A stretch of DNA of 64,000 nt from Zanthoxylum bungeanum (lineage: Eukaryota > Streptophyta > Magnoliopsida > Sapindales > Rutaceae), in assembly GCA_019454045.1 (NCBI GenBank), contig SKCR01038121.1, positions 62,001-126,000 on the forward strand, read 5' to 3'. Made by a program: the position numbers and the translations under genes. This document shows positions 3,320-58,831 of the stretch, piece after piece (position 1 is the stretch's first letter; each line of letters opens with the position of its first letter). The notes below the pieces were generated by a model, which saw only the letters and a list, made by a program, of their open reading frames with translations, did not search any database and was not told the origin of the DNA.

Positions 3320-3763
3320 TAATTTTCATGAAGATAGAGGATAGCATTCGTGAAGTTGGGACTTGGGGCTAGAAGTATACAACGAAAGAAACTCTGTTTC
3401 CCTATGAATCCTACAAGCAACTCAAATTGCGTCCTATTTTTATTAACAGAGAAGCACCAATTTATTAAAATCCTTTTGTATTTTCCTGCATTTTCAAGCA
3501 AACAAGCTGCTGCAACACTATCATATATATACATCACTCTCTCCCACTGATTCACTTCATGCACCTTATTATATATATATAACCTATATATCTAACAAAG
3601 ACAAGAGTTGCTAACTAATTAAAGCTTCACACTTCACCTAAATTATCCACTCTCTTCCCATCATAATACTAATATAAAAACCCCCCCTCATTCCTCTCCA
3701 ATTTCATCAAACACCTTCTGCAAATTACATCAATCTCCATTCTTGCAAAGTACATCTGCAAAT
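3320..3763 (+). promoter_or_regulatory. Promoter and leader of the first FLA gene
   Basis: A TATA box (TATAAAAA) lies at 3673-3680, about 90 bp before the start codon. An ACCTAA element, similar to the AC-type sites bound by secondary-wall MYB factors, lies at 3636-3642. The leader phrase ATCAAACACCTTCTGC recurs in the other two cluster members. The block from about 3326 (TTTCATGAAGATA) on is duplicated upstream of the third FLA gene at about 11588, so the duplication carried at least 400 bp of promoter. Confidence 0.6.
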
Positions 3764-4606
3764 ATGATGATGAAGCAAACATTCATCTCCTTTTCACTTG
3801 CCCTACTCTTTCTCTTCCATTGCACCCAAACCCTAGCTCAGCCAGCAGCAGCTCCAGCTCAACCTGCAGGCCCCATTGCAGCTCCGGCTCCACCTACTCC
3901 TCCGGTTCCTCTAGTCCAACCTGGTCCAGCTGCAGGTCCAGCGCCATCCGGCCCCACCAACGTCACCAAAATCCTCGAAAAAGCGGGCCATTTTTCACTC
4001 TTTATCCGGCTGCTTAAGGCCACCTCAGTCACTGACCAGATTGAGCACCTGCTCAATGACTCAAGCAGTGGCATGACCATCTTTGCACCAACTGACGACG
4101 CCTTTTCTAGCCTCAGCTCAGGCACTCTCAACTCCCTAAACGATGGGCAAAAAGAATCTCTAATGCAGTTTCATGTGATCTCTACATACATTCCACTATC
4201 TCAGTTCCAAACTGTGAGTAATCCTCTGAGAACAAATGCTGGAGACAGTAGCAAATACGCGTTTCCGCTTAATGTGACATCTTATCCCAATTCAGTGAAC
4301 ATTTCAACTGCCATTACCAATACTAGCTTGTCTGGTACTGTGTACACTGATGGCCAGCTTGCTATTTATCAAGTAAATAAGGTGCTGCTTCCCACGAGCC
4401 TCTTTGGTCCTAAGCCTCCGGCACCGGCTCGTGCGCCGGGAAAATCTGACAAGCAGGATGCTGCTGCAGCTTCTCTTGATGAAGATGATAGTCCTGATGA
4501 TGATGATGATGATAAAGTGAATGTCTCTGGTGCAGTGAGTCTCATGGCCATGCAACATGTGGGTTTCTTTGTGGTAGCTATGGTTGCAGCATTATTTTCT
4601 TTGTGA
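3764..4606 (+). CDS. Fasciclin-like arabinogalactan protein (FLA11/12-type), copy 1
   Basis: Intronless gene for a 280-residue secreted cell-wall glycoprotein. Residues 1-26 are a signal peptide ending near TLAQ. Residues 27-64 are rich in AP, AGP and PAP modules that would be hydroxylated and carry arabinogalactan. One fasciclin domain spans about 65-210, with an H1 motif (GMTIFAPTDDAFSSL, 104-118) and an H2 motif (VYTDGQLAIYQVNKVLL, 193-209). N-glycosylation sequons include NVT, NIST and NTS. An acidic Asp run (246-250) precedes a hydrophobic C-terminus that fits a GPI-anchor signal. The first ATG of the frame is at 3764. Single-fasciclin, GPI-anchored group A FLAs are linked to secondary-wall and stem mechanics in other plants. 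Assignment to the FLA11/12 subgroup is by architecture only. Confidence 0.93.
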   Translation: MMMKQTFISFSLALLFLFHCTQTLAQPAAAPAQPAGPIAAPAPPTPPVPLVQPGPAAGPAPSGPTNVTKILEKAGHFSLFIRLLKATSVTDQIEHLLNDSSSGMTIFAPTDDAFSSLSSGTLNSLNDGQKESLMQFHVISTYIPLSQFQTVSNPLRTNAGDSSKYAFPLNVTSYPNSVNISTAITNTSLSGTVYTDGQLAIYQVNKVLLPTSLFGPKPPAPARAPGKSDKQDAAAASLDEDDSPDDDDDDKVNVSGAVSLMAMQHVGFFVVAMVAALFSL

Positions 4607-11584: not shown

Positions 11585-12131
11585 AATTTTCATGAAGATA
11601 CAGGATAGCATTCATGAGGTTTGGTCACTGGTCCCATTTCACAAAATTGCATTGAATTGCTCTTTTGCTAGAAGTATAATCAAAGAAACTTCTTTCTTAG
11701 GGTTGTGGCAATAAGCAAGCATTAGGCAGCTAGCAATAGCCCCTTGTGTAATATATTTAAAATCTCTTTGGGATGATCCGGGCATCTTAGAAGGATCTCG
11801 ACCACGAACATTCTAGGGACTTAAGTTATATACTCACTCGCTCTTAATTGACTTCATTAATGAAATGCTATTTATTATATCCATCTTTATTTACCTACAC
11901 AACCACTTTGAAATCCTTCCTGCTTTTCCTGCCTTTTAAAGCAAGCTAGTTGCTTTAAAAGTATCATACTCCATTATTGATTTGCTAACAACTAATAAGG
12001 TTTTGCTAACTGGATCTGGAACTGCACATTTTACCTAACTTTATTCTCTTCACAACCTTAATAAAAACCCTACCTCTCCTCTCCATTTTCATCAAACACC
12101 TTGTTCAAAGTCCCGTACTTGCATTGTGATC
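11585..12131 (+). promoter_or_regulatory. Promoter and leader of FLA copy 3
   Basis: It is homologous to the promoter of copy 1 from the TTTCATGAAGATA block (about 11588) to the leader phrase ATCAAACACCTTGTTC. ACCTAAC (12033-12039) fits the secondary-wall MYB consensus ACC[A/T]A[A/C][T/C]. A TAATAAAAA TATA-like box is at 12059-12067. Confidence 0.6.
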
Positions 12132-12896
12132 ATGAAACACCATTTATTCTCATTGTCACTTGCCCTGCTCTTTCTCCTCCTCCATTGCACCAAACCTCTA
12201 GTAGTAGCCCAGCCAGCAGCAGCGCCGGCACCCGGTCCACCGGGCCCCACCAACGTTACCAAAATCCTTGAAAAAGCCGGCCAATTCACCCTCCTTATCC
12301 GGCTACTAAAAGCCACCTCAGTGGCTGATCAAATTGATCACCAGCTCAATGACACAAACAATGGCATGACCCTCTTTGCTCCGACCGATAACGCCTTCTC
12401 TAGCCTCAGTTCCGGCACCCTCAACTCCCTAAACGACCAACAAAAGGTTGCCCTAATCCAGTTTCATGTAATCCCCACTTACATTCCATTATCCCAGTTC
12501 CAAACTGTGAGCAATCCCTTAAGAACAAATGCTGGTGACAGTAGCAAGTTCAAGTATCCACTCAATGTGACAACTTTTGGCAATTCAGTGAACATATCAA
12601 GTGGCATTACTAATACAAGTGTGTCCGGTAATGTATACACTGATGGGCAGCTTGCTGTTTATCAAGTGGATCAAGTGTTACTTCCTTGGGATCTTTTTGG
12701 TGCTAAGCCTCCGGCACCGGCGCCAGCTCCGGCAAAACCAAAGAAGAAGAAGGCTGATGCTGTTGCTGATGGTCCTGATGATGATGCTAAAGTTGATGAC
12801 TCTAGTGCAATGAGTCCCATGACCACCAATATGAAAAATGTGCTGATCTTTGGGCTTGCACATGCTATAGTTGTTGCAGCAGCGTTTCCTTTGTGA
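12132..12896 (+). CDS. Fasciclin-like arabinogalactan protein (FLA11/12-type), copy 3
   Basis: Intronless gene for a 254-residue GPI-anchored cell-wall proteoglycan, the shorter paralogue of the gene at 3764. Signal peptide 1-27 (ending VVAQ). The first AGP module is reduced to PAAAPAPGPPGP (28-39), so it carries far fewer glycan sites than copy 1. Fasciclin domain about 40-186 with H1 (GMTLFAPTDNAFSSL, 78-92) and H2 (VYTDGQLAVYQVDQVLL, 168-184). A second AP-rich stretch (PPAPAPAPAKP), then a basic KKKK run and an acidic patch precede the hydrophobic GPI signal (about 234-254). Sequons NVT, NDT, NIS and NTS are retained. The ATG at 12132 is the first in frame. Confidence 0.93.
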   Translation: MKHHLFSLSLALLFLLLHCTKPLVVAQPAAAPAPGPPGPTNVTKILEKAGQFTLLIRLLKATSVADQIDHQLNDTNNGMTLFAPTDNAFSSLSSGTLNSLNDQQKVALIQFHVIPTYIPLSQFQTVSNPLRTNAGDSSKFKYPLNVTTFGNSVNISSGITNTSVSGNVYTDGQLAVYQVDQVLLPWDLFGAKPPAPAPAPAKPKKKKADAVADGPDDDAKVDDSSAMSPMTTNMKNVLIFGLAHAIVVAAAFPL

Positions 12897-30058: not shown

Positions 30059-30531
30059 TAGAGGTGGGCATCGGATCGGATCGGATCGGATTTGGCTATC
30101 GAACCCAATCGAATCATGTTTGGTTCATTTGTCGAATTTCGGATCGGATCGGATAAATTTGATAACTATCGGATCGAATTGGATTTTATCCGATTTGATA
30201 ACAAATCCGATAAGGAATCCGATTTGATAACGGATTTGAAATCCGATAGAGAATCCGATTTGATAATAAATCTGATAGTAGATTCGATTTGATAACAAAT
30301 CTGATTTGATAACGGATCCGATTCGAAAAATTTATTTGAAAATTTGTAAATTCATAACAATTTTATCGAATCGGATCGGATAACTTAAAATTCAAATCAA
30401 TTTTATCAAATCGGATCCGTTATCAAATCGAATCCACTATCGGATTCATTATCAAATCGGATTCTCTATCGGATTCGAATCCGTTATCAAATCGGATTAG
30501 AATCCGTTATCAAATCGGATGAGCCACACGT
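30059..30531. repeat. ATCGGAT/ATCCGAT inverted array
   Basis: The left half repeats GGATCGGATCGGATC, then units such as AATCCGATTTGATAACGGAT; the right half repeats the complementary ATCAAATCGGATTC. Edges GAGGTGGGCATCGGATC and GGATGAGCCACAC are roughly inverted. It can fold into a long hairpin and looks like a nonautonomous hAT-type element. The LTR retrotransposon inserted 10 bp to its right. Confidence 0.6.
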
Positions 30532-30545
30532 CTGAGTTTTACTAA

Positions 30546-32615
30546 TGACCGGCGTAAACACACACGTATAACGCAAGCGCACGTATCGTTTAAGTAGTAT
30601 AAAATAATCGATCCCACGAGGACTTATTTCCTACTGTTTTATTAATTGTTGAATCTATTTAATTACAAATATCTAATTAAATGGATAAGAGAGAGATTGT
30701 TTGTTTGTTTGGTTGAGTGTGGATTTGCAAAATAAATAAATAAAAAGATAAAAGAAAATACTAAGGAAAATAACAAAAGACACAAAATTCTAGGGTTGTG
30801 ATTTATTCCAATATCATTATAAAGATGAAGTGATTATTTTATAGTTAGGAAATACAATGATTTATTAACCTGGAACACGAAATTATGCGAAAGCATCTGT
30901 CGATGGTCAGACACAAATACCCAGTAAACCCAATTGAACCATATTCCTATGTCAACCACATTATCTGGATTCATTAAGATTAAGTTCCAATTTATGGCTA
31001 CCCTCGCCTGACAGGTATATTCCTATCCTGTAAGGAAATCTATTAAAGGGTTATCTATCCTCAAGGAAGATCGTGGGCTATTGAGTCTAAGGTTTTAAAC
31101 TTAAAATCTCTATGTCTAGTTCATTTTAAGTTTACCTAATCAATTTTATTAGTGATCAGTTAATAAAAAGCATTAAGATTAAGACTCAATAAATAATCAT
31201 TATATTACCCAAACTATAATCTAACCCTTATAAACCGGTGATATTGAAATTCATCACAACCTTAGAAAAACTTACACATAATTATAACTAGTAAAAACAT
31301 AAAATTAAAAGACATAAAATAAAATGCTAAAAAGTAATTACAATAAAATAAAATGCTAAGGTAAAAGGAATTACTTTTACTACTACTAATTTAGATATCT
31401 CCCATAAAATAATATATAAACTTGTGATATTATTTACCAACCGACCAATCTGGCGGTATCCGTGATTAGTCAGGTTTAAACCAGATTAAAATTAAATTAC
31501 CAACCGACCAATATAGCGGTATTCCTTATTAAGTCAATATTTAAAATAGTTAATATATTATTTTTAAGGGAGATTAATCTAAATAGCAATAGTAGAAGAA
31601 TTACCTTTCACCCTAGCTGAAAAAGTTACTTCAACATGGTGAATAGTAAAAACTGTAAAAAGTAAAAAGTAAAAATTAAATTACTATTATTACAACAAGT
31701 AATTAAAATTATTTACAAAACTAAAAATTAAAAAAACTAAAAATAAAAATAAAAATTCTAGAGAGAGAAATTAAGAGAGAGAGAAGTGTTAGGTATTTAA
31801 AATCTGAAAATTCGCCATCTATTTATAGCAAAAGTTTTCACTGTTTGGTCACTGTTCGCGCGTCGCGACGCTGGATTTTTCACTATTTGGTCGACGTGGC
31901 ACGCTGAGAAGGCGACACGTGCATGGCGGCTGACTGTTCACGCGACACGTGTCAAGGCGGCTAAGACTCAATTATTGTGATGACGTCATTGATGACGTCA
32001 TGCTGATGTGGCGATGACTTGGCGCTGGCGTGTGGTGGCATGTGTTGCAATTGTCGGCACAATAGGATTGCGACACGTGGCGACACGTGTCACGTGGTGA
32101 TTGGCTGATGCTGAGGTGTCAAGTTGACTTGGTTGACCTTGTGACGTGGCTGATGACGTGGCGTGACACATGGCGAGTTGACTCGTTGACCGCTGACATG
32201 GCTGATGACAAGGCGACACGTGTCAAGTCAAAGTGTCGGCAGCATATGATGTTGACACGTGGCACGGCGCACGTTAGCAGATTCGTTGTGATGGTGACAC
32301 GTGTCACGGCGCACGTTAGCAAAGTCAACTTTTCTCAGATTCTGATTTTGTGGACCCGGCGCATGTTAGCAGATTCGGCGCACGCTGGGCGTCGCGACTC
32401 TGAAGGTCTGGGCGGCGCGACGCTGGAAATTACCAAAATGCCCTTTTTTCCACCAATTTTCACTGTTTTATATTCCAAATCACCTCCAGAATGTCCTGAA
32501 ACTTTATTTATCTACAAAATAACACAAAACACATCAAAACATTCACAAAACTCAAGAAACTATACAAAATATTAGATTAAATGAGTGGAAATAGTGATAT
32601 AAATACCACTCATCA
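30546..32615 (-). repeat. 3' LTR of the LOG-bearing element
   Basis: 2070 bp. Positions 31890-32330 form a GC-richer block with about 15 ACGT cores (GACACGTGTC, TGACGTCA, GACACGTGGC) and several TTGACC/TTGACT motifs. The palindrome CGTCGCGACG is at 31861-31870. Two ACCGACCAATNTNGCGGTAT boxes lie near 31441 and 31503. It differs from the other LTR by only scattered small changes. Confidence 0.93.
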
Positions 32616-33194
32616 CACCCCCAAACCTAACATTTTGCTAGTCCTCGAGCAAAATACAAAATGGAATAACATAATAAAATTTAACTAAACCATTTTCGTA
32701 GGGATCACGGTTGCATTTAGCATATGCAACAAGCCTTAAACCCCTAGGTGTCCCTAGTGGACGAGTTGTAGTCTCGTGAGGGCTTACACAGCAATGATAC
32801 CCACAAACATTTTACAAAAGTAAAAAGGTATTAAAACTAATGCACACAAAAGCAAAAGACAAGCGAAAAGAGAATAAAAAAGTTAGTAACTAATCAGGTG
32901 AAACTTCTACTACAAGTTACTAGTTGTTTTGTTTCTTTCTAAATTACCGAATAAGTAAATTCTCCGATTATTTTCATCTTTCTTCATATACACAGTCAAC
33001 ATAATATTAAACAACTCATTTTTGCCCATAACAGTCATAAGTGCAGTTGATAAGAGAGTAATATTTTTGTCCTAAAGTTCTATCAGATTTCACACCTTTT
33101 TGTAGTAATGGAATAATTTTCTGATTTTTCTGATTTTTTTCTTTGCTTTTTCTGAATTTTGACTTTTTATTTATATACAATACCTTCTGTCTAT

Positions 33195-33425
33195 GTAGCG
33201 AGCTTTGGGTCGGTGGCTCCCAAACCAGTTGGCTTTAGGGCACCAGGTGTTAAGACACCCCTACGAACTTAATTACTCAGACTTCAGATATGAATATATT
33301 TTTGCGCAGTATCTTCGATCCATGTAGCGAGCTTTGGGCCAATGACTCCCAAACCAGTTGGTTTTAGGGCACTAGGTGTTAAAACCCTTACAGACTTAAT
33401 AACCCGGATCTTAGATACTTTATTT
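33195..33425. repeat. Tandem duplication, about 129 bp, inside the retrotransposon
   Basis: GTAGCGAGCTTTGGG at 33195 and 33324, each followed by a CTCCCAAACCAGTTGG and AGGTGTTAA block. Two diverged units near the 3' LTR. Confidence 0.7.
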
Positions 33426-33974
33426 TTGTACATCAATTTTTTTTTTTTTTTTTTTTTTTTATTCCATAACTATGTATAGATGCTTCCTCCAATTAAACTA
33501 TAGCACGGAATATTACAAACTTTTCAATTACAGCTCATGTCTGTATGTTTCCATATAAGTTCATAATACCTGTCAACTGAACATATGAAGATCCATTTTA
33601 GTCAGTGTTAAGGAGAATTCACAAATTAAATAATTCAAAAGGAAATAAACAAAAATTAACTTATTTCGAAATAAATGGTTTGAAATACGTCTCAAGAGTG
33701 GAAATTCCTTACTCGGCTATCTCTTACCAATTTCGCCTTTTTAGTCAAAATAAAAACACAAAAAAAGCAAAATTTTTTTGTAATTTTTGAAAATTTTCAT
33801 TTTTTTTTTGTATTTTTCGAAAAATTTTGGACTAAAAATAAAAACACAATACAAACAAATACTATTAACTATACCTCACCCCCAAACCTAAATGAGACAT
33901 TGTCCCCAATGTCTTAAATAGTAGAAGAAGAGTTTAGAAAATAATACCTGGTTAGTTGAAATTCTACAGGAAAT

Positions 33975-34627
33975 TTACAGGTTAAGATCCAGATTAATTC
34001 TACGCCTCTTACCACGATCGTCTTCGGACCAATTTATCTTTGAAATGATAGGGTCAACTTTCGGTTCATAGGCTATGAGTTGGTCAATTAGATCTGGAGC
34101 AGTTCTGGCAGTGAAGAGAGTTCTTTTAAAGGTTTTGACACGAACCCATTTCTTCGAGCATCATCAAGAAACACACAAAGAAAATCATAAAATCCATCAA
34201 CGTTGTACAGTCCAATTGGTTTCTGGTGTATGTTCAGGTTCGCCCAAGATAGTACTATAAAAATTTCCTCCAATGTGCCCAAGCCACCTGGCAAAGCAAT
34301 AAAAGCATCAGCACGGTTAATCATTTCTACCAATCGTTCCGACATACCTGGCACGATCAGTTCCTCTCCGTTTGTTTGTTCAATAAGATTTGCCTCTGCC
34401 AAGGGTTTTGGGATGATTCCCAAAACATGACTGCCTCCTTCCTGTACGGCCTTTGAAACAATCCCCATTAGTCCAAGATTACCTCCGCCATATATTAAGT
34501 GTATATTCCTTGCGGCTAAGACTCGACCCAATTCCTGTGCTGCTTCTATGTATTGTGGTTTAGTTCCAACAGTACTACCGCAAAACACACAGATGTTCTC
34601 AACTCATCTTCTTGAAGTGGCTTCCAT
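33975..34627 (-). pseudogene. LOG: LONELY GUY (LOG) cytokinin-activating enzyme, captured retro-copy
   Basis: LOG enzymes split cytokinin riboside 5'-monophosphates to free active cytokinin. From the ATG at 34627 the frame has a TGA at codon 8 (34604-34606) and then runs open to 34088. It shows ICVFCGSTVG, the YGGGNLGLMG motif and the catalytic/nucleotide motif PGGLGTLEE, followed by LSWANLNIHQKPIGLYNVDGF. Near 34120 the homologous frame shifts; the typical tail (DLIDQLIAYEPK... KRRRINLDLNL) continues in another frame to a TAA at 33975. Total length of about 217 codons equals a complete plant LOG. Plant LOG genes have introns but none is present here, so an mRNA copy was captured. As it stands it cannot make the full enzyme. 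Confidence 0.88.
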
Positions 34628-34689
34628 TTTTTATGTATTTCTTTTTTTTTTTCAAATCAGGATGCCTTCAAAAGTGCAATGACGAGTTG

Positions 34690-36253
34690 AATTTATAATA
34701 CCTGAAAAGGGTGAATAAAAATAGCACTAATATCTTCCAAAGGACGATTGTTAGCTAAACACAACAATGAATCGTGAAAGGTCAAAAAGGCTGGATCCTG
34801 TCTACGAAAATAAAGATAATTACAACGGAAAAGCAAATCAAAGCAATAATTAAGGCAACGGAATTGTGTATGCAATACGCCACTCGCATAGTATAAATTC
34901 ATTAGGATGTGTCTCAAGATTTTATTCCTTATTCAGCCATCGCTAAATGAATTGTTTCTCATCATTGATTGTCAAACACAATTCATTCTGTATTAAAATG
35001 CTTCGTTTGTGCTTTTCCCTACAAAATAACACACAAAATTAAAAAATTCACACTATGTATACACAAAAGAGTTTAGAAGATAATACCTAGTCAGCTGAAA
35101 TTTTACAGGAAAAATTACCGATAGGAAAAATTTATGTCCAATTGATACTTGACGATTTTTTTAGTGAAAATTTCGACAGAGTCTCCTCTAAAAATTTAAA
35201 ATCTCCCCAAATTCATCCTAAAAATTATCACCAATCAAATCCCAACTTCGGTATTTTTTAGAAAAATCCGACAGAGTCTCCCCTGAATTTTTGATTATCC
35301 AACACAGCCTAAATCTATCAAATGCCACAAACACTCCAATTCAATTTCGCCCCCACAACTACTAATCAAACTACCAACAATCCAACACTTCGCAATTCAA
35401 TCCACAGTCATAATCAACCAAATCACAATTCAATTTTTCTCAGTTTACCCAATTACCAAATCAATTTTTTTTATCGAATCATTAATGTTAATCTCAAATT
35501 CTGATTTTGGCAGTGGTGGGTTCTCTCGGCTCTGTTGGATTTCGCTTGGGTTTCTGGTCGGCCGGCTTGGTGACAGAGAGACACAGCAGTGGCTTGGTGG
35601 ATTCGGTGACTGTGACAGTGAGGAAGGTGTCGGCAAAGATGAAAATGACTCGGTTTTGACTCGGCAAAAGAATGGCTCGGTCACGGCAAGGGTCTCGGTT
35701 GTAGGTGGTCTCGGCGATTGGGTTGCTGGGGCAGGTTTGCTTCTCGGTTTTGGTTTGTGGTTGAAGTGGCTGTGATGGATCTTGGTGGGTTCGGCGAAGC
35801 TTGGTTCTCGGTGATGAGATGGTTTCAGTTTCGACGGTGGTGGTTCTCACGGTGGTGGATCTCGGCTTGCGAAGGCTTGGTTTGGTTGGCTTTCGGCTAG
35901 GGTGAGTCTCGGTTGGTGGATCTTTCGGTGAGTGGTGGGGCTATGGTGGATCTCGGTTTTGAGGTGAGTGATGTCAGTTTCGGTCTCGGTGAGGTGGCTG
36001 AACGGCAGTGAGTGATGGCTGGTTCGGTTGATGCTGGTGGTGCGGTTGTGGTTGGCTGGATCGTGCGTGGTGGGTGGTGGGTTGCGGTGATGGTCTGATT
36101 TCGGTTGGATTTGGCTTCTGGTTGAGAGAAAATGGTGAGATCTGTGAAGAGGATGAGTGATCTGTGCGTGGTGGCTGCTGGTTTTAGGCTTTAAACAAAC
36201 CAGTGTCGCGACGCTGAAATTGGCCGTGCGTCGCGACGCTGGGTAATTTTTAG

Positions 36254-36288
<35 letters not shown>

Positions 36289-36300
36289 GCAAAACCATGT
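34690..36300 (-). other. Retrotransposon interior of unknown origin, GC-richer at 35490-36240
   Basis: Between the LOG copy and the gag-like ORF. 35490-36240 is markedly GC-rich, full of CCAACCGA-type motifs on the minus strand, with CGTCGCGACG at 36229-36238 and a 34-nt A run (minus) at about 36256-36289. Frames across it are repetitive Thr/His/Pro or Gly/Trp translations without recognisable domains. It may be a captured promoter/leader or internal regulatory DNA. Confidence 0.4.
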
Positions 36301-36604
36301 CTTGCGACAGATAAATCCATAGGGACGCCTCTTAAGAAGTGTCTTTTTACTTGGCCGTCTCCCGAATCAACTTTGTATCTTCGTGATTTTGTCAAATTTT
36401 TATTTTGTAAAAATCCCGCTTGCACTGGCTTGCTTTGTCCTGATAAATTCCATTTTAAATTTTTCCTGCAAAACTCACACACAATTAAAAAGTTCACACA
36501 CAAAAATAAATAAATAATTAAATAAATTACAACAAATTGCATGGGTTGCCTCCCTGCTAGCGCTAATTTTTCGTCTTCAGCCAGACGTGACTGAAATTCA
36601 TCTG

Positions 36605-37738
36605 TTAAGGAGGTTTCAGTGTCGTTTTGGATGTCCGATTAAAGACAATCCCGTGAGCGTTGCTTTTGAAGGGTCTCTTCCAACGGTAAAGTGGTAAAAA
36701 GAATTTTGTCTTATTCAATGCTCGTGCCACTTTTTTTATCTTTGTTGCTCCAGTGATTCCTGCAAAGAAAGAAATAAAATTAGGAGGTCTCGTATGGTGC
36801 TTGACTTGGAATGGAAATTCCATTTTGTCAAGCTTCTGAGTGGTTTCTTTGATTTGTACTCCCCAAAACAGCGATGTTTCTCCTGAATGCTCTGGATCTT
36901 TAATAAGGTCAGATATTTGCTCTTCTATTTGCTCTGCTTCTTGCTCCACCTTTTCTTCACAGATGTATTTGAAAATTTCTGCATTCAGCTCTTCATCTGT
37001 CATCTGTGAAATACATGTTTCAAAATTTTCAACCTGAAAAGAAATGTTAGATTTTAGGTCTTCATCCTCTGATCTGGTTGAAATGATTGGCTCAGGTATT
37101 TCTTCATCAAACATTTGTGCAATGGAATCTCCAAGATCTTCATTTTGAGGATACAGAATTCCATCCTCAATTTTTGATGCAGTTGGCACAAATATTTCAG
37201 CTTCATCCTCGTCAGAATCTGAATAATAGAAATCAAATCGAGACTTTGTCGGTTCGGGTTCCTGAACTGATACCTCTGGTTGTTGATACTGCTCAGCCTC
37301 CTCCTCTGTTAAGGTGTCATCGTGGATTTCTGGGTACTCGAAGGCTTCATCAGTGTCATCTGAAACTGGTTCTTGAGGTATGATGTTCTGGTTTTCTATT
37401 AATTGTCTGATCTGATCTGTCATTCTCTGTATGGATTCTGCGTTACTATGAATTTGTGCATCAAATCGAGCTCCTTGTTCTTTGAACATGTGAATTAATT
37501 GATCTTCCTCGGATGGTTCTGGTTCTTGATAAGGATCGAAGGAAGATGGTGGATAAGATGGAAAATGTGATGGTTCTGTGAAATATGTTGGCTCATCATA
37601 CCATGAAGGATTCTGATAGTTCTGCCACCCTGAATTGTAGTTGTACTCGCAATAATCGCTTGGGTGGTTACCATTACATATGTCACATCTCCACATTGAG
37701 TTCTGTTGAACAAAAGTAGTATTATTTGGTTCTGACAT
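36605..37738 (-). CDS. Gag-like ORF of the retrotransposon
   Basis: 377 residues. Near the N-terminus lies a zinc-knuckle-like motif CDICNGNHPSDYC (residues 18-30, C-x2-C-x3-H-x4-C, one residue shorter than the classic knuckle). Then a Tyr/Pro-rich stretch, a helical segment (MFKEQGARFDAQIHSN...), a long acidic Glu/Asp region (about 120-290) and a basic C-terminus. A related frame with its own ATG (37856, MEHYWKLRNHELYKK) lies just upstream and would join after one frameshift, so the original protein was probably longer. No protease, RT or integrase follows. Role inferred: RNA binding or particle assembly. Confidence 0.7.
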   Translation of the reverse strand: MSEPNNTTFVQQNSMWRCDICNGNHPSDYCEYNYNSGWQNYQNPSWYDEPTYFTEPSHFPSYPPSSFDPYQEPEPSEEDQLIHMFKEQGARFDAQIHSNAESIQRMTDQIRQLIENQNIIPQEPVSDDTDEAFEYPEIHDDTLTEEEAEQYQQPEVSVQEPEPTKSRFDFYYSDSDEDEAEIFVPTASKIEDGILYPQNEDLGDSIAQMFDEEIPEPIISTRSEDEDLKSNISFQVENFETCISQMTDEELNAEIFKYICEEKVEQEAEQIEEQISDLIKDPEHSGETSLFWGVQIKETTQKLDKMEFPFQVKHHTRPPNFISFFAGITGATKIKKVARALNKTKFFLPLYRWKRPFKSNAHGIVFNRTSKTTLKPP

Positions 37739-37965
37739 CCAGTGATAGTCATTGGGCTCAACAACAGGCCTCAGAAAACTGGACTGTGTTGCTCCCAGAT
37801 TTGGGGTGTATCTTCTTGTAAAGTTCGTGATTTCTCAATTTCCAGTAGTGTTCCATTTTTAATCACTTGAAAACAAAAGAAATAAAAATTACAAAATAAA
37901 AGAAAGAAAATTAGATATAAGTAAATTTGATAGTTTCAAAATTAACAACTCAAGAAATATAAGTC

Positions 37966-37987
37966 CCCGGCAACGGCGCCAAAAACT
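37966..37987 (-). promoter_or_regulatory. Primer-binding site
   Basis: On the minus strand TGGCGCCGTTGCCGGGGA lies directly inside the 5' LTR. This is the common plant Ty3/gypsy primer site, usually assigned to tRNA-Asp. It fixes the element's orientation. Confidence 0.88.
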
Positions 37988-40061
37988 TGACCGGCGTAAA
38001 CACACACGTATAACGCAAGCGCACGTATCGTTTAAGTAGTATAAAAATATCGATCCCACGAGGACTTATTTCCTACTGTTGTTATTAATTGTTGAATCTA
38101 TTTAATTACAAATATCTAATTAAATGGATAAGAGAGAGATTGTTTGTTTGTTTGGTTGAGTGTGGCTTTGCAAAATAAATAAATAAAAAGATAAAAGAAA
38201 ATACTAAGGAAAATAACAAAAGACACAAAATTCTAGGGTTGTGATTTATTCCAATATCATTATAAAGATGAAGTGATTATTTTATAGTTAGGAAATACAA
38301 TGATTTATTAACCTGGAACACGAAATTATGCGAAAGCATCTGTCGATGGTCAGACACAAATACCCAGTATAACCCAATTGAACCATATTCCTATGTCAAC
38401 CACATTATCTGGATTCATTAAGATTAAGTTCCAATTTATGGCTACCCTCGCCTGACAGGTATATTCCTATCCTGTAAGGAAATCTATTAAAGGGTTATCT
38501 ATCCTCAAGGAAGATCGTGGGCTATTGAGTCTAAGGTTTTAAACTTAAAATCTCTATGTCTAGTTCATTTTAAGTTTACCTAATCAATTTTATTAGTGAT
38601 CAGTTAAAAAAAGCATTAAGATTAAGACTCAATAAATAAATCATTATATACCCAAACTATAATCTAACCCTTATAAACCGGTGATATTGAAATTCATCAC
38701 AACCTTAGAAAAACTAACACATAATTATAACTAGTAAAAACATAAAATTAAAAGACATAAAATAAAATGCTAAAAAGTAAATTACAATAAAATAAAATGC
38801 TAAGGTAAAAGGAATTACTTTTACTACTACTAATTTAGATATCTCCCATAAAATAATATATAAACTTGTGATATTATTTAACCAACCGACCAATCTGGCG
38901 GTATCCGTGATTAGTCAGGTTTAACCAGATTAAAATTAAATTACCAACCGACCAATATAGCGGTATTCCTTATTAAGTCAATATTTAAAATAGTTAATAT
39001 ATTATTTTTAAGGGAGATTAATCTAAATAGCAATAGTAGAAGAATTACCTTTCACCCTAGCTGTGAAAAGTTACTTCAACATGGTGAATAGTAAAAACTG
39101 TAAAAAGTAAAAAGTAAAAATTAAATTACTATTATTACAACAAGTAATTAAAATTATTTACAAAACTAAAATTAAAAAAACTACTAAAATAAAAATAAAA
39201 ATTCTAGAGAGAGAAATTAAGAGAGAGAGAAGTGTTAGGTATTTAAAATCTGAAATTCGCCATCTATTTATAGCAAAAGTTTTCACTGTTTGGTCACTGT
39301 TCGCGCGTCGCGACGCTGGATTTTTCACTATTTGGTCGACGTGGCACGCTGAGAAGGCGACACGTGGCATGGCGGCTGACTGTTCACGCGACACGTGTCA
39401 AGGCGGCTAAGACTCAATTATTGTGATGACGTCATTGATGACGTCATGCTGATGTGGCGATGACGTGGCGCTGGCGTGTGGTGGCATGTGTTGCAATTGT
39501 CGGCACAATAGGATTGCGACACGTGGCGACACGTGTCACGTGGTGATTGGCTGATGCTGAGGTGTCAAGTTGACTTGGTTGACCTTGTGACGTGGCTGAT
39601 GACGTGGCGTGACACATGGCGAGTTGACTCGTTGACCGCTGACATGGCTGATGACAAGGCGACACGTGTCAAGTCAAAGTGTCGGCAGCATATGATGTGT
39701 TGACACGTGGCACGGCGCACGTTAGCAGATTCGTTGTGATGGTGACACGTGTCACGGCGCACGTTAGCAAAGTCAACTTTTCTCAGATTCTGATTTTGTG
39801 GACCCGGCGCATGTTAGCAGATTCGGCGCACGCTGGGCGTCGCGACTCTGAAGGTCTGGGCGGCGCGACGCTGGAAATTACCAAAATGCCCTTTTTTCAC
39901 CAATTTTCACTGTTTTATTCCAAATCACCTCCAGAATGTCCTGAAACTTTATTTATCTACAAAATAACACAAAACACATCAAAACATTCACAAAACTCAA
40001 GAAACTATACAAAATATTAGATTAAATGAGTGGGAAATAGTGATATAAATACCACTCATCA
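37988..40061 (-). repeat. 5' LTR of the LOG-bearing element
   Basis: 2074 bp. Same features as the 3' LTR, including the ACGT-core array at about 39335-39775 and CGTCGCGACG at 39306-39315. Open frames here are products of the GC-rich motif array, not genes. Confidence 0.93.
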
Positions 40062-40909
40062 ACTAAAAATGATAATTTTCTCCGAAGTAGACTTCGGAAA
40101 ATCCAAATTCTCTGAAGTTTACACCAAAGTTCTTTTTTTTTTAAATATTTTATTCTAAACTTCGGATATCCGAAGTTATGACTACGGATCTCCGAAGTTC
40201 GTTTGGCTAGTTTTTTTATATTATATTTCTTATATATATATTAATAAAATAAATTTTATTTAGTTATAATTTATTTTTGGACTAATTTTGCTTCTTTTTT
40301 TTTTTTTTTTTTTTTTTTGCTTTTGAGACATATATATATATATATATAATACATATCATCAAAATCAATGTAAGCCAATACATCATCAAACTGTAGTATG
40401 CAGTCTAGCAATATGATGTCTAAAATATTGACCTCATCTGTGTGACTGATACACAGCACGATGATCAACTGAATGATATCATTAATAAGCTGAATGCCTA
40501 GTTTGATGTGTCTCTGTCACAAAGCGTGCAATCGGTCATCATAAAACAAGGCATGTTCACTCTCCGTAAGTCTCGGTCCCAGTACACTACCAGCTCTCTA
40601 AACAAGCCATGCTTTATACCGTTAGTCATCATTGGGACCAAACTGCATACCCTCCACAACCAGACACCATAATACCTCACATATCAAGTTAGAGGTAATA
40701 TTATAATCCAACCTCCTCCCGAACAACCAAGTAGAAAATTGAAAAAGGTGCTTCTGAATCGTTTATGGATCGATGTTATTGATGAACATCAGACATAATC
40801 GAGCATACATTATGACGTCTAAAGTATAAAGGTTGTCTCATCATATATCGCGCAGTAGATCAATCTGTCAATATCCAGTAATATTTTCTATATCTATTGC
40901 ATATGTCCC

Positions 40910-42834
40910 TGACCGGTATTGTCACACGCGTATAACGCAAGCGCACGTATCGTTCAAGTAGTATAAAAAGTATCGATCCCACGAGAACTTAATACCTAGC
41001 AATTAATTTTATGAGGTCAAATGATTACTAGTATCTAACAGATTTATTGATTGACTGTGTGGTGACTTAAAACTTAAAAACAAGTAAATGAAATTGCGAA
41101 AATAAGTTTAGGAAAATTCAAATTTATAAAACTATCTAGGGTTGTGAATTCTTCCAATATATTTTAAAAGATGAAGTGGTTATTTCACGTTTGTGCAATA
41201 TATTGGTTTATTACCTGGAACACGAAAATATGTAAAAGCCTCTTCCGATGGTCAGATACAAATACCCAGTGTAACATAATTAATCATATTCATATGTCAA
41301 CCAAGTTACCTGAATTCATTAAAATTAAGTTCCAATTATGGTTACCCCCGCCCGACAGGTATATTCCTATCATGTAAGGAAATCTATTAAAGGGTTATAT
41401 ATCCTAAAGGAAGCTCGTGGGTTATTAAGTCTAGGGTCTTAAACATAAAATCTATTTTCCAAGTTCATTTTAAGTTTACCAGTTCAATCTTATTAATGGT
41501 CAGTTAACAAGAAGCATTAAGACTAAGGCTCAATAAATAAACTTTTATATTACCCAAACCGTAAAACAACCCCTTATTAACCAGTGATATTGGGATTCAT
41601 CACAACCCCAGATAACGGGCTTAGCTACGACACAGATCTAAGGCTAATAAAAGCTTAAATAAAATAAAAGACATAAAGTAAATTCTGGAAATTAAATAAA
41701 GTAAATGTTGGAAATTAAAAATGTAAAAGTACAATAAAAGAAAATGTTGGGGGGGGGGGGGTTAGAGGATCCACTTTTAATATTTCAAAATTAGAAATCT
41801 CTTTTATTCTCAATGTTTACCGATTAATTAATCAGGCCATAAATGCGATAATTTCATTTGTCTCAATTAAATCAAACCGACCATATAGGCGGTAACAAGG
41901 TTATAATATAAACCGACCATATAGGCGGTAACTACGTCTGAAATGAAAAACCGACCATATAGGCGGTAAATAAGGTTGTCACTTAAACCGACCATATATG
42001 CGGTAACTAATTAATCCAAATTTTAATTAAAATAAGGGAGATTAATCTAATTCATTATATTAAAAATCTCACATTTTCACCCCAGCAGAATGAGATTACC
42101 TGCTCATGCTGTAAAAGAAAACACACAAAATTTTATTAAATAAATAAAAAGAAAATACAAGAAAACTTAAATAATATACAAGACACTTTCCTTTAGATTT
42201 TCATGGAGAAACTCCTCCAAAGAAAGCATGAAAATTTTACAAAGTTAAGCTTGGTATTTATAGGAAAATCTAAAGGCTTCCACCAATTTCTCCACCAATT
42301 GCTCCACTAAACATGACACCAAACATGACACCAAACATGACATCAAACATGGCACCAAATATGCAAGCATGTTTGGTTGAAGTTTGACAATTTTTACTTT
42401 TTTTATTTTATTAATTTTATTTTATATTTTGAAAATGACTATAGTAATTACACAAAATACACTAGATTATTCATCAATTTCGGCCTTCCAAACTTCAGAA
42501 TTCGAAAATATTTAAATCTTCAAAGTTGTAGATCTTTGTGTCTTCTTTAATCTGGCACTTGAATCAGCTCAATCGGATATCAGATGGCAAAGTTATGGCC
42601 AAAATACCAAACTTGCACAAAACTGGAATTTAGGACTACATTTCGTGACGTGTATAGTAAATTTTCGTTTTCACCATTTTTTGCTCCGGATTTCATCGTT
42701 TTACCCCCGAGTTGATTTCATTAAGTCTCAATACTTTATTTATCTACAAAATACATAAAAATACATCAAACCGAGAAACTAAACAAAACATTAGGTAAAA
42801 AGACGGTAAATATTAATATATTTTCCGCTCATCA
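40910..42834. mobile_element. Solo LTR related to the LOG-bearing element
   Basis: Starts TGACCGG and ends CGCTCATCA like the neighbouring LTRs, with the perfect duplication GTCCC at 40905-40909 and 42835-42839. Much of the first 700 bp aligns (ACGCAAGCGCACGTATCG, CACGAAAATATG, CGACAGGTATATTCCTATC), but it lacks the ACGT-core array and instead has four copies of ACCGACCATATAGGCGGTA. It was formed by LTR-LTR recombination of a related family. Confidence 0.9.
41876..42004. repeat. Four-copy ACCGACCATATAGGCGGTA array
   Basis: Near-perfect 19-bp, quasi-palindromic boxes spaced 35-45 bp apart within the solo LTR. The neighbouring retrotransposon LTR has only two diverged versions. Confidence 0.85.
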
Positions 42835-57400: not shown

Positions 57401-58831
57401 TCACGTATTTTAAAACATTGCCTATACCCAAATCGTTGGGTCTAGGCAGTGCATCGAAATGGCAGGCGTTTTCTGTCCATTTTGTGGCAATTTCGTCGCC
57501 AAAAGCCTCCGTTGATCGCCGCCGATTTTCATACCCTAACCCTATTTTTATAAATCTATCTCATAAATTTCAAAAAACCCCAATTTTTCAGGACATAAAC
57601 TCTAATTTCTAAAAAACGACTAAATTTGAATTCTCTGCCGGCCGAGAATTGTCTAGGCCCGCCTAGGCATTGGGCTATCTCCTGACTAGCGCTTAGCGCG
57701 TTTTAGAACATTGGCCACATCGCCATCCTCTCGTTGTCGTCGTTCTCGCTGTTTGAGTTTTGTTATTGAATCTTTTTGTGATTGTTTTAGATTGTTAAGT
57801 TTAGTGGGGCAAGTGAGGAATCTCATTTTGTTTTAAAGGGTAATTTATGTCTGAAGCTTTTCATTGATATTTGATGCTCATTTGTTCTCTTCTTCCCTAA
57901 CCAATCGAAATTTCAGTTTGAGAGTAAGGAAGAAGAAGATTGAAACCAGCTGGACCTAGACCAAGTCAGCAGTTCATCGGTTGAACCAGCCGGGGCGGCA
58001 AGTTCTTTTATGGATTAATTGAAAGCCAAGTTATTGGGATAACCCAGACTTGAACTTAGATCAGTTCCCGGGTTTAGCAGTCGGCCTGGACAGTCCAGGT
58101 TTTAAATCATTGAAAAAAACTACTATAGTACTATTTCATGCAAGAGAATAAGGTAGCGGCAAATTTGAAGAGAGAGGATCGTGAACATACATGTGTATAT
58201 CCTTATATGCCATAGAAAACATATTGAGGCTTAAAAGCACCAACCTGTAACATAGTACTTAATAAATTGACAATAACTACTACCATTTCATCCAAGAGAA
58301 CACAGACACGACAATATAGGTACTATTGGGCATCTAACCTGTTTTTTTCCCTGCTTTGAAAGACTTAATTGAGAGAGTACATCCTTCAGCTCCTTTATTC
58401 GAAAATATGCCAATTTTTCCTGCGAGAGAAGATGCAAGGTGTCAAAAATTTTGCATACCAGCACGAGATAGAGCAGAGGGGAAAAAACCCCTTTAAAAAT
58501 TTGTTTGCGCGCTTAACAAAAACTTAAAAAATGGTGTGCAATATAAATTTCATCCCAAAAAGAGTACTCATGACTCAACTTCCAGTTTTTTCATCTCAAT
58601 GGCATTCAATTAATTTACCGAATACATCGCATACTCCATAACTTCACATCATTTTAATTTTTAAATTCCTCAAACTCTTCCTTCGCCATCTTCCAATTGA
58701 CATCTCCGAAAGAAAAAACTAAACCACACTAACAAAACCACTTATTTATCACAAGAAATTAACAACTAATCAACGTGAGCAAACAAAAAACAAATACTTC
58801 TAATTACCTTGCAGCTAGGTATCAAATCCAT
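45421..58831 (-). CDS. SIZ1: E3 SUMO-protein ligase SIZ1 (16 exons)
   Basis: Nuclear SUMO E3 ligase. Exons: 58808-58831, 58339-58419, 55409-55451, 54392-54464, 53977-54142, 53622-53752, 52684-52752, 51698-51785, 51532-51607, 51099-51172, 50691-50798, 50347-50508, 47471-47575, 47278-47358, 45986-47189, 45421-45560. Phases join cleanly to 874 residues. SAP domain about 10-45. PHD finger C116, C118, C130, C135, H140, C143, C163, C166. PINIT region about 190-310. SP-RING with C380, H382, C385, C403 and C406. SUMO-interacting motif [10 protein letters not shown] at about 604, and a sumoylation-type VKQE near 490. Plant SIZ1 acts in phosphate, cold, heat, ABA and salicylate responses. Intron 13 begins with GC; introns 2 and 12 are large and carry insertions. 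Confidence 0.95.
49763..49936 (-). mobile_element. SINE copy in SIZ1 intron 12
   Basis: The best preserved family member: T run at the left, AACCCGGGCTTAAGCAGAGC, CTCTTACAAGAAATGCACC, GGACTCAAACTCAAGACC and AACCAAGTCATAAGCCC. On the minus strand it has a tRNA-like head (GGGTGTTGCTTGGTGGCAAA, then GAGTTTGAGTCC as B box) and a 3' A run. It lies in the same transcriptional sense as SIZ1. Confidence 0.75.
50120..50335 (-). repeat. Duplicated copies of the SIZ1 exon 12 end in intron 12
   Basis: The block ATAGATTGACACCAAAAGAATCTTTAACT occurs as two near-identical copies (ending about 50233 and 50286) and matches the 3' end of exon 12 (AGATTGACACCAAAAGAATC at 50358-50377). The shared sequence includes the exon/intron border and about 50 bp of following intron. 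A smaller duplication (TTTACAAACACCTGCATGTAAG) lies at about 50150-50195. Confidence 0.85.
56536..57713. mobile_element. Middle hAT-like element
   Basis: Ends CAGTGTTC and (mirror) CAATGTTCTAAAACGCGC, flanked by GCCATGTC (56528-56535) and GCCACATC (57714-57721), an 8-bp duplication with two changes. It is interrupted by the inner element. Confidence 0.55.
56565..57420. mobile_element. Inner hAT nonautonomous element
   Basis: Terminal inverted repeats CAGTGTTTTAAAATACGT and CAATGTTTTAAAATACGT, flanked by the exact 8-bp duplication CCTATACC (56557-56564 and 57421-57428). Subterminal GCCTCGAGGCG copies are dense at both ends. The middle (about 56785-57060) has AAACGACGAC...GTCGTCGTTTTGG, TTATATAAAAA and CTCTCGGCGTCGTC repeats, like a promoter/leader. 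Confidence 0.88.

Follow-up and report, generated by a model that had tools for sequence, protein, structure and literature searches.

A broken LOG gene within an LTR retrotransposon of Zanthoxylum bungeanum and a related clade of tail-bearing LOG proteins

The element and its LOG gene

The window (the whole stretch of 64,000 nucleotides of Zanthoxylum bungeanum DNA analysed here) is plant nuclear DNA, since a fasciclin-domain gene and a Sec61-beta gene were recognised in it with Pfam. Two similar fasciclin-like frames lie on the same strand, at positions 3623–4606 and 12039–12896 (Pfam on the first only), and are apparently a local gene duplication; a snoRNA, snoZ101 (RF00358), was found at 57804–57882, just over the gathering score. 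The minus strand carries an LTR retrotransposon at 30546–40061, with the following features:

30541–30545, no strand: target-site duplication ACTAA, left copy
30546–32615, minus strand: 3' LTR, by BLAST against the 5' LTR
32616–32630, minus strand: polypurine tract TTAGGTTTGGGGGTG, abutting the 3' LTR
33928–33973, plus strand: direct repeat of 46 bp next to the stop codon of LOG, 89% to its counterpart
33975–34627, minus strand: LOG (TIGR00730/YgdH) gene, 217 codons, intron-free, broken
33975–34013, minus strand: C-terminal tail GKRRRINLDLNL-stop, undamaged within its own frame, with a basic stretch and an LxLxL (EAR-type) motif
34110–34136, minus strand: frameshift (–1 base net) following KPLKEL
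34604–34606, minus strand: in-frame TGA at codon 8, where the intact relatives P0001–P0003 have arginine
35067–35112, plus strand: second member of the 46-bp direct repeat pair, about 440 bp ahead of the LOG start, 89% to its counterpart
36605–37834, minus strand: gag-like open frame, 409 codons, with a CX2CX3HX4C zinc-knuckle-like motif
37964–37981, minus strand: primer-binding site TGGCGCCGTTGCCGGGGA, 18 bases, beside the 5' LTR
37988–40061, minus strand: 5' LTR, TG...CA ends, 98.75% identity to the 3' LTR (BLAST)
40062–40066, no strand: target-site duplication ACTAA, right copy

The BLAST alignment of the two LTRs contained 6 mismatches and 17 gap openings over 2,082 columns, and a MAFFT alignment contained 14 mismatches, many of them in a single run around a shifted gap. 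At substitution rates of 0.7–1.3e-8 per site per year, the LTR differences correspond to an insertion age of about 0.1–0.5 million years. The pair of LTRs and the perfect ACTAA duplication had been described in the original prediction and were found as described. Because both lie outside the LOG gene, this gene moved along with the element, as had also been proposed.

The internal region of the element, of 5,372 bases, holds the gag-like frame and the LOG gene. The gag-like frame had six relatives (rows P0121–P0126 of our protein comparisons, 56–70% identity) and no Pfam match at E 0.001. Among the 17 internal open stretches of at least 70 codons, 16 had no Pfam match at the curated cut-off, the 17th being LOG, and no pol domain was matched even at E 1. 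The element therefore looks non-autonomous. Its LTRs, primer-binding site and polypurine tract are present and pol was not found, as in LARD-like non-autonomous elements, and, because pol is absent, it would have moved with proteins from elsewhere. It would be a derivative of a Ty3/gypsy-type lineage, probably Athila/OTA, on the basis of its zinc knuckle, its target-site duplication (5 bp, a length common to most LTR lineages) and its primer-binding site, which would fit the 3' terminus of the tRNA-Asp of plants. The primers of non-chromovirus elements are tRNAs other than Met, with tRNA-Asp among them (PMC6317226). As a sense frame between gag and the 3' LTR, the LOG gene fits the position known as eORF-3'F (sense 3' extra ORF), and its 217 codons fall under the cut-off of 250 codons used for extra ORFs in the same study (PMC6317226).

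The LOG frame, read from 34627 to 33975, consists of MEATSRR and a stop, and is then open via ICVFCGS to SKPLKEL, beyond which it continues in the -3 frame and ends with the tail given above. It contains YGGGNLGLMG and PGGLGTLEE, and thus has the LOG-family motif PGGxGTxxE. The open piece of 171 aa matched Pfam PF03641 (E 3.3e-35) and PF18306 (E 4.5e-18), Arabidopsis LOG, PDB 2a33 (E 8.8e-54), and the intact 217-aa protein P0001 (89% identity over 95% of the query), and these matches place its LOG identity far beyond chance. PDB 2a33 corresponds to LOG3 of Arabidopsis (PMC4979012). The NCBIfam cytokinin-specific model NF058542 was without discriminating power, the canonical LOG P0107 missing its cut-off as well. 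Translation and Pfam therefore agree with the original prediction of an intron-free LOG of about 217 codons on the sense strand of the element, with the PGGLGTLEE and GGG.LGLMG-type motifs, a TGA at codon 8 and a frameshift near the C-terminus, which proved to be a net loss of one base.

From the LTR differences, about 1–2 substitutions (the lower value from BLAST) and 2.4 indels would be expected in 653 nt. As the stop and the frameshift are close to this expectation, the LOG gene may have been intact on landing. It was probably broken after insertion, and some indels in the window could be assembly errors. The window copy has no working function now, the gene being broken and pol not found. 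On the sense strand, A-runs were found downstream of LOG (10 A at about 165 nt and 24 A at about 515 nt) and upstream of it (11 A just before the start and 32 A farther up), with no A-run directly at the LOG stop. Since they occur on both sides, these runs are not diagnostic of a processed (LINE-type) copy. The ancestral capture may have involved template switching or such a processed copy. The 46-bp repeats flank the LOG cassette on both sides, and are a possible footprint of its insertion.

Other repeats were observed in and around the element. Its 3' internal region contains a tandem-like pair of 89-bp repeats (33168–33256 and 33297–33385, 82%). The stretch between gag and LOG (35448–36638) is GC-richer, with repeated CTCGGTT-like words and overlapping open frames on both strands, for which no Pfam match above the cut-off was obtained. 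Just past the element, a diverged stretch of the same LTR family (40910–41705, 76% over about 800 bp) is probably what remains of an older related insertion. Just left of the target site, 30188–30475 belongs to a ATCCGATTTGATAAC-type repeat family with a 73-nt inverted repeat.

A clade of LOG proteins with a modified tail and pocket

The window LOG protein was searched against 5.8 billion proteins, and the best 120 of 7,954 matches were used. Among the closest of these 120 were intact 217-aa proteins with 85–89% identity, located on short contigs; partial rows reached up to 91% identity over 59–75% of the query, and proteins from Populus, Xanthoceras, Diplodiscus and Reevesia had 52–64%. The comparison set consisted of the best 120 of 7,995 matches to P0107 from Diospyros, which are ordinary LOG7-type proteins from many angiosperms. 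This set is LOG7-like, Arabidopsis PDB stretches being added in the trees, and the tail comparison covers 117 clade rows and 121 such LOG7-like canonical rows.

In a carefully built 49-row tree, the window LOG fell into one clade with the tail-bearing proteins (100/99, 100% of 200 bootstraps), and the ordinary plant LOGs formed a single group in only 68% of the bootstraps. Quick trees with 107 and 57 rows yielded the same separation of the tail clade from ordinary LOGs. Nine rows are basal in the clade (the Xanthoceras rows and P0033/34/43); they were joined in one group in the 57- and 49-row trees, but not in the 107-row quick tree. The four bacterial LOGs in the 49-row tree formed a group of their own (100/100), which attaches on the canonical side; their identity to the Populus protein P0040 is 42–48%, and a bacterial origin of the clade is therefore disfavoured, in a test that is weak with four rows. 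The search of a collection of genome contigs returned four bacterial LOGs only, and scans of viral contigs using the window LOG, P0040 or a 22-base pattern next to the polypurine tract as query yielded no relative.

The C-terminal tail distinguishes the clade from the canonical rows. A basic cluster within the last 22 aa was present in 90 of the 117 clade rows versus 1 of 121 canonical rows, and LxLxL within the last 14 residues in 70 of 117 versus 0 of 121. For full-length rows (at least 200 aa), LxLxL was found in 64 of 89, or 64 of 80 when the nine basal rows are set aside; the strict motif is missing from the other 16 non-basal rows, in some by truncation. It was also present in 24 of 36 representatives below 80% identity. 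We rejected chance as the source of the motif, since 69 of the 90 basic-tailed rows contain it and shuffled tails never reached this count (mean 10.3, maximum 21 in 2,000 shuffles). The C-terminus of the window LOG has LDLNL, which is an EAR-type pattern. Motifs of this type are short and need not be functional where they occur. The patterns described for plant repressors are LxLxL or DLNxxP (PMC6283911, PMC9956375). In the AlphaFold2 model of P0001 (29 aligned clade sequences), the body of the protein is confident (mean pLDDT 85, pTM 0.82), and the tail, residues 204–217, has a pLDDT below 50. A role of the tail in entry into the nucleus and in the binding of corepressors is predicted.

Residue roles and numbering were taken from CgLOG and AtLOG3 (PMC4979012). 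The catalytic residues are Arg99 and Glu122 (CgLOG numbering), and the prenyl-group site in CgLOG, AtLOG3 and CpLOG comprises Met96, His97, Lys100, Glu125 and Trp129, with Lys100 helping to hold both the adenine and the prenyl group (PMC4979012). Arg99 and Glu122 are both kept in the window and in 106 of the 116 clade rows (117 in total) that cover them; the remaining ten have Gln for Arg99 (eight rows, including seven relatives of P0012) or Asp for Glu122 (two rows). At the prenyl site, the window LOG has Met, Ser, Leu, Ile and Trp, with three of the five residues changed (Ser97, Leu100 and Ile125), and His97, Lys100 and Glu125 are all kept in 121 of 121 canonical LOGs. Lys100 is present in all 121 canonical rows and in 9 of 9 basal rows, but in only 1 of the 108 other clade rows, and the same counts were obtained for Glu125 (two of the 108 being gaps). 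At position 97, these 108 non-basal rows have His in 20 cases and Ser in 76, with replacement in 88, and all three residues are changed in 86 of them.

The kept catalytic core suggests that some nucleotide monophosphate is still bound or split, and the alteration of the pocket speaks against a simple role of the derived members in activating cytokinin. The original prediction had called the product cytokinin-activating, its known plant counterparts releasing active cytokinin; with three altered pocket residues and a broken copy in the window, this is open to doubt. From its residues, the window type of LOG may have ceased to function as a hormone enzyme, and a cytokinin-making accessory enzyme is possible mainly for the basal members.

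Origin of the LOG frame

The reading that we favour, and consider probable, is that LOG is an inherited extra ORF of a non-autonomous Ty3/gypsy-type (probably Athila/OTA) element, which would now encode an accessory protein and would not be a new passenger. The genomic context is that of the window copy, and we infer from it that the whole clade is retrotransposon-borne, with further support from the reports on Citrus and Populus and from 13 uninterrupted frames, both considered below.

The catalytic and glycine-motif columns are near invariant across the deep divergence of the clade (column entropy in 89 full-length rows: 0.00 for E122 and 0.36 for R99, with a median of 0.86), and the tail motif is retained. 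Both observations argue against LOG being a functionless selfish passenger in a clade kept by chance, via the copying of a few master elements. Such a passenger would fit the dead copy in the window and the several rows that are shortened or have lost catalytic residues, and we regard this explanation as unlikely.

Next in probability, and also rather improbable, is a subfamily of EAR-tailed host LOGs, made up of ordinary multi-exon genes and captured by elements one or more times. Some rows of the clade are indeed annotated as genes, in Populus, Xanthoceras, Diplodiscus and Reevesia, in entries that are silent on exons. Several exons are the rule for ordinary LOG genes of plants. In 13 of the 120 listed rows, a LOG frame of 200 aa or more runs without interruption in a cluster with a longest contig of 3–9.6 kb, suggesting intron-free DNA or a long retroelement-like transcript. 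Furthermore, identity to P0001 is 47–88% for 28 chosen clade rows, versus 74–88% for LOG7 proteins to P0107 (best 120 of 7,995), although this contrast is weak, and LOG domains have been reported inside LTR consensus sequences of Citrus and Populus (PMC9289625).

The original prediction that an element in this host had taken up a host LOG mRNA by template switching shortly before insertion, which the intron-free sense frame inside young LTRs would fit, is rejected as very unlikely because the window LOG is only about 55–57% identical to the ordinary LOGs of Diospyros, Asparagus and Orobanche (P0107, P0112 and P0113), versus up to 89% to intact, same-tailed clade members, and lies several nodes inside the tail clade in the 49-row careful tree and in the 107- and 57-row quick trees. 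This position inside a separate clade indicates that LOG was inherited within an old lineage. Small RNAs against the parental LOG gene had also been envisaged; with a protein identity of about 55%, perfect siRNA matches to the host LOG look unlikely.

Order of gain, proposed role and related elements

The basal rows have a basic tail, no LxLxL and the old pocket, and the other rows mostly have LxLxL and the new pocket. P0054 branches between the basal rows and all the others, with 99/91 on both sides in the 49-row tree; the 57-row tree agrees (91 and 89), and the 107-row tree puts P0054 first among the non-basal rows. This protein has the tail KRRRLDLTLHL, yet His97, Lys100 and Glu125 are retained. 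The simplest series to be read from these sequences would run from the basic tail to the EAR-type motif and then to the loss of the cytokinin pocket, with one intermediate row (P0054). For the first two steps, the basal rows may instead have lost LxLxL secondarily.

We propose a single, ancient uptake of a plant LOG mRNA by a retroelement, after which the captured LOG would first have gained the basic C-terminal tail, to which LxLxL would have been added, the residues holding the adenine and the prenyl side chain being lost last. The product would be an accessory protein, its sense frame lying between gag(-pol) and the 3' LTR. When intact, it would be made from the RNA of the element as a dimer with the LOG fold, and its disordered tail could direct it into the nucleus and attach to TOPLESS-type corepressors. 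It would then act on the expression of host genes, or on a different nucleotide, and not mainly in cytokinin production. In its fullest form, this proposal would have the lineage turn a captured cytokinin enzyme into a nuclear recruiter of TOPLESS-type corepressors through its basic and LxLxL tail, with the tail gained first and the pocket given up second, and steer host expression or silencing to its own benefit; we put this forward tentatively, as a possibility that does not reach an even chance by a good distance.

The presence of LOG in plant LTR elements is already known. Extra ORFs similar to a LOGL4 gene were reportedly found in the 3' part of Athila-like elements by Steinbauerova et al. 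2011, Genetica 139:1543, and would share with the window ORF both a cellular LOG-like character and a 3' position in the element. A YgdH/LOG domain was reported in LTR-retrotransposon consensus sequences of Citrus sinensis, C. clementina and Populus trichocarpa, in a survey that cites Steinbauerova et al. 2011; the P. trichocarpa domain appears only without the filter of that survey, and all 15 extra domains passing the filter sit in Gypsy-type elements (PMC9289625). The likeness is that of a LOG-family extra domain in a plant LTR retrotransposon, and there are two differences: the consensus sequences were built from reverse-transcriptase-bearing regions, of which there is no trace in the window, and no LOG tail, pocket change or phylogeny is described in the available part of that survey (PMC9289625). 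The original view that the transduction of a hormone enzyme by an LTR element is unusual thus stands in part, such LOG domains having been reported earlier in Citrus and Populus (PMC9289625).

Compared with canonical plant LOGs (AtLOG3, PDB 2a33, and AtLOG8, PDB 1ydh), the clade shares PGGxGTxxE, the catalytic Arg and Glu and, as far as the sequence match to 2a33 and the confident model indicate, the fold. It differs from them in its tail (of the 121 canonical rows, 0 with LxLxL and 1 with a basic cluster) and in its pocket, H97, K100 and E125 being kept in all 121. The accessory gene of Grande is said to encode a nuclear protein (Gomez-Orte et al. 2013); it likewise lies in the 3' internal region, a nuclear location being only predicted for the clade LOG, and its protein is not known to be related to LOG. 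Gypsy elements of Phalaenopsis have an AlkB-like m6A RNA demethylase ORF, which is similarly a host-type enzyme kept over many copies, but this enzyme is active in vitro (PMC9289625), whereas the window type of LOG has an altered pocket and is known here from its sequence.

According to reviews, the origin of most antisense extra ORFs in plant LTR retrotransposons is unknown (PMC7264820), and whether extra ORFs function at all has been questioned (PMC6317226). For the window ORF, the origin is plain: a plant LOG. The putative stepwise series, with a basic tail, an EAR-type motif, pocket loss and a kept core, together with the small size of the protein, makes a role for an extra ORF testable. 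The tail and the order of gain seem new, and the function is predicted from sequence. Among the titles and abstracts listed from the open-licence literature, we found no description of the tail, the pocket changes or the clade (weak evidence, subscription papers being largely absent from it), and none of the matches listed there joins LOG or retroelement ORFs with EAR motifs. Pathogen effectors have been reported to bind TOPLESS (PMC8126959, PMC7446885); if the tail works, the clade LOG would stand beside these effectors as a retroelement product that recruits a plant corepressor.

Two further groups of rows were observed within the clade. Eight rows (P0072, P0074, P0082, P0087, P0095, P0098, P0099 and P0116) end within four residues of each other, at 165–168 aa, and these near-identical ends could reflect deamination in methylated copies or shared shortened subfamilies. 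In a subclade near that of the window (P0009, P0012, P0016, P0019, P0021, P0023 and P0037), Gln replaces the catalytic Arg99, and these proteins are probably non-catalytic LOGs, judging from this replacement; five of the seven rows end in an EAR-like KLDIDLNR or RLDIDLNR tail.
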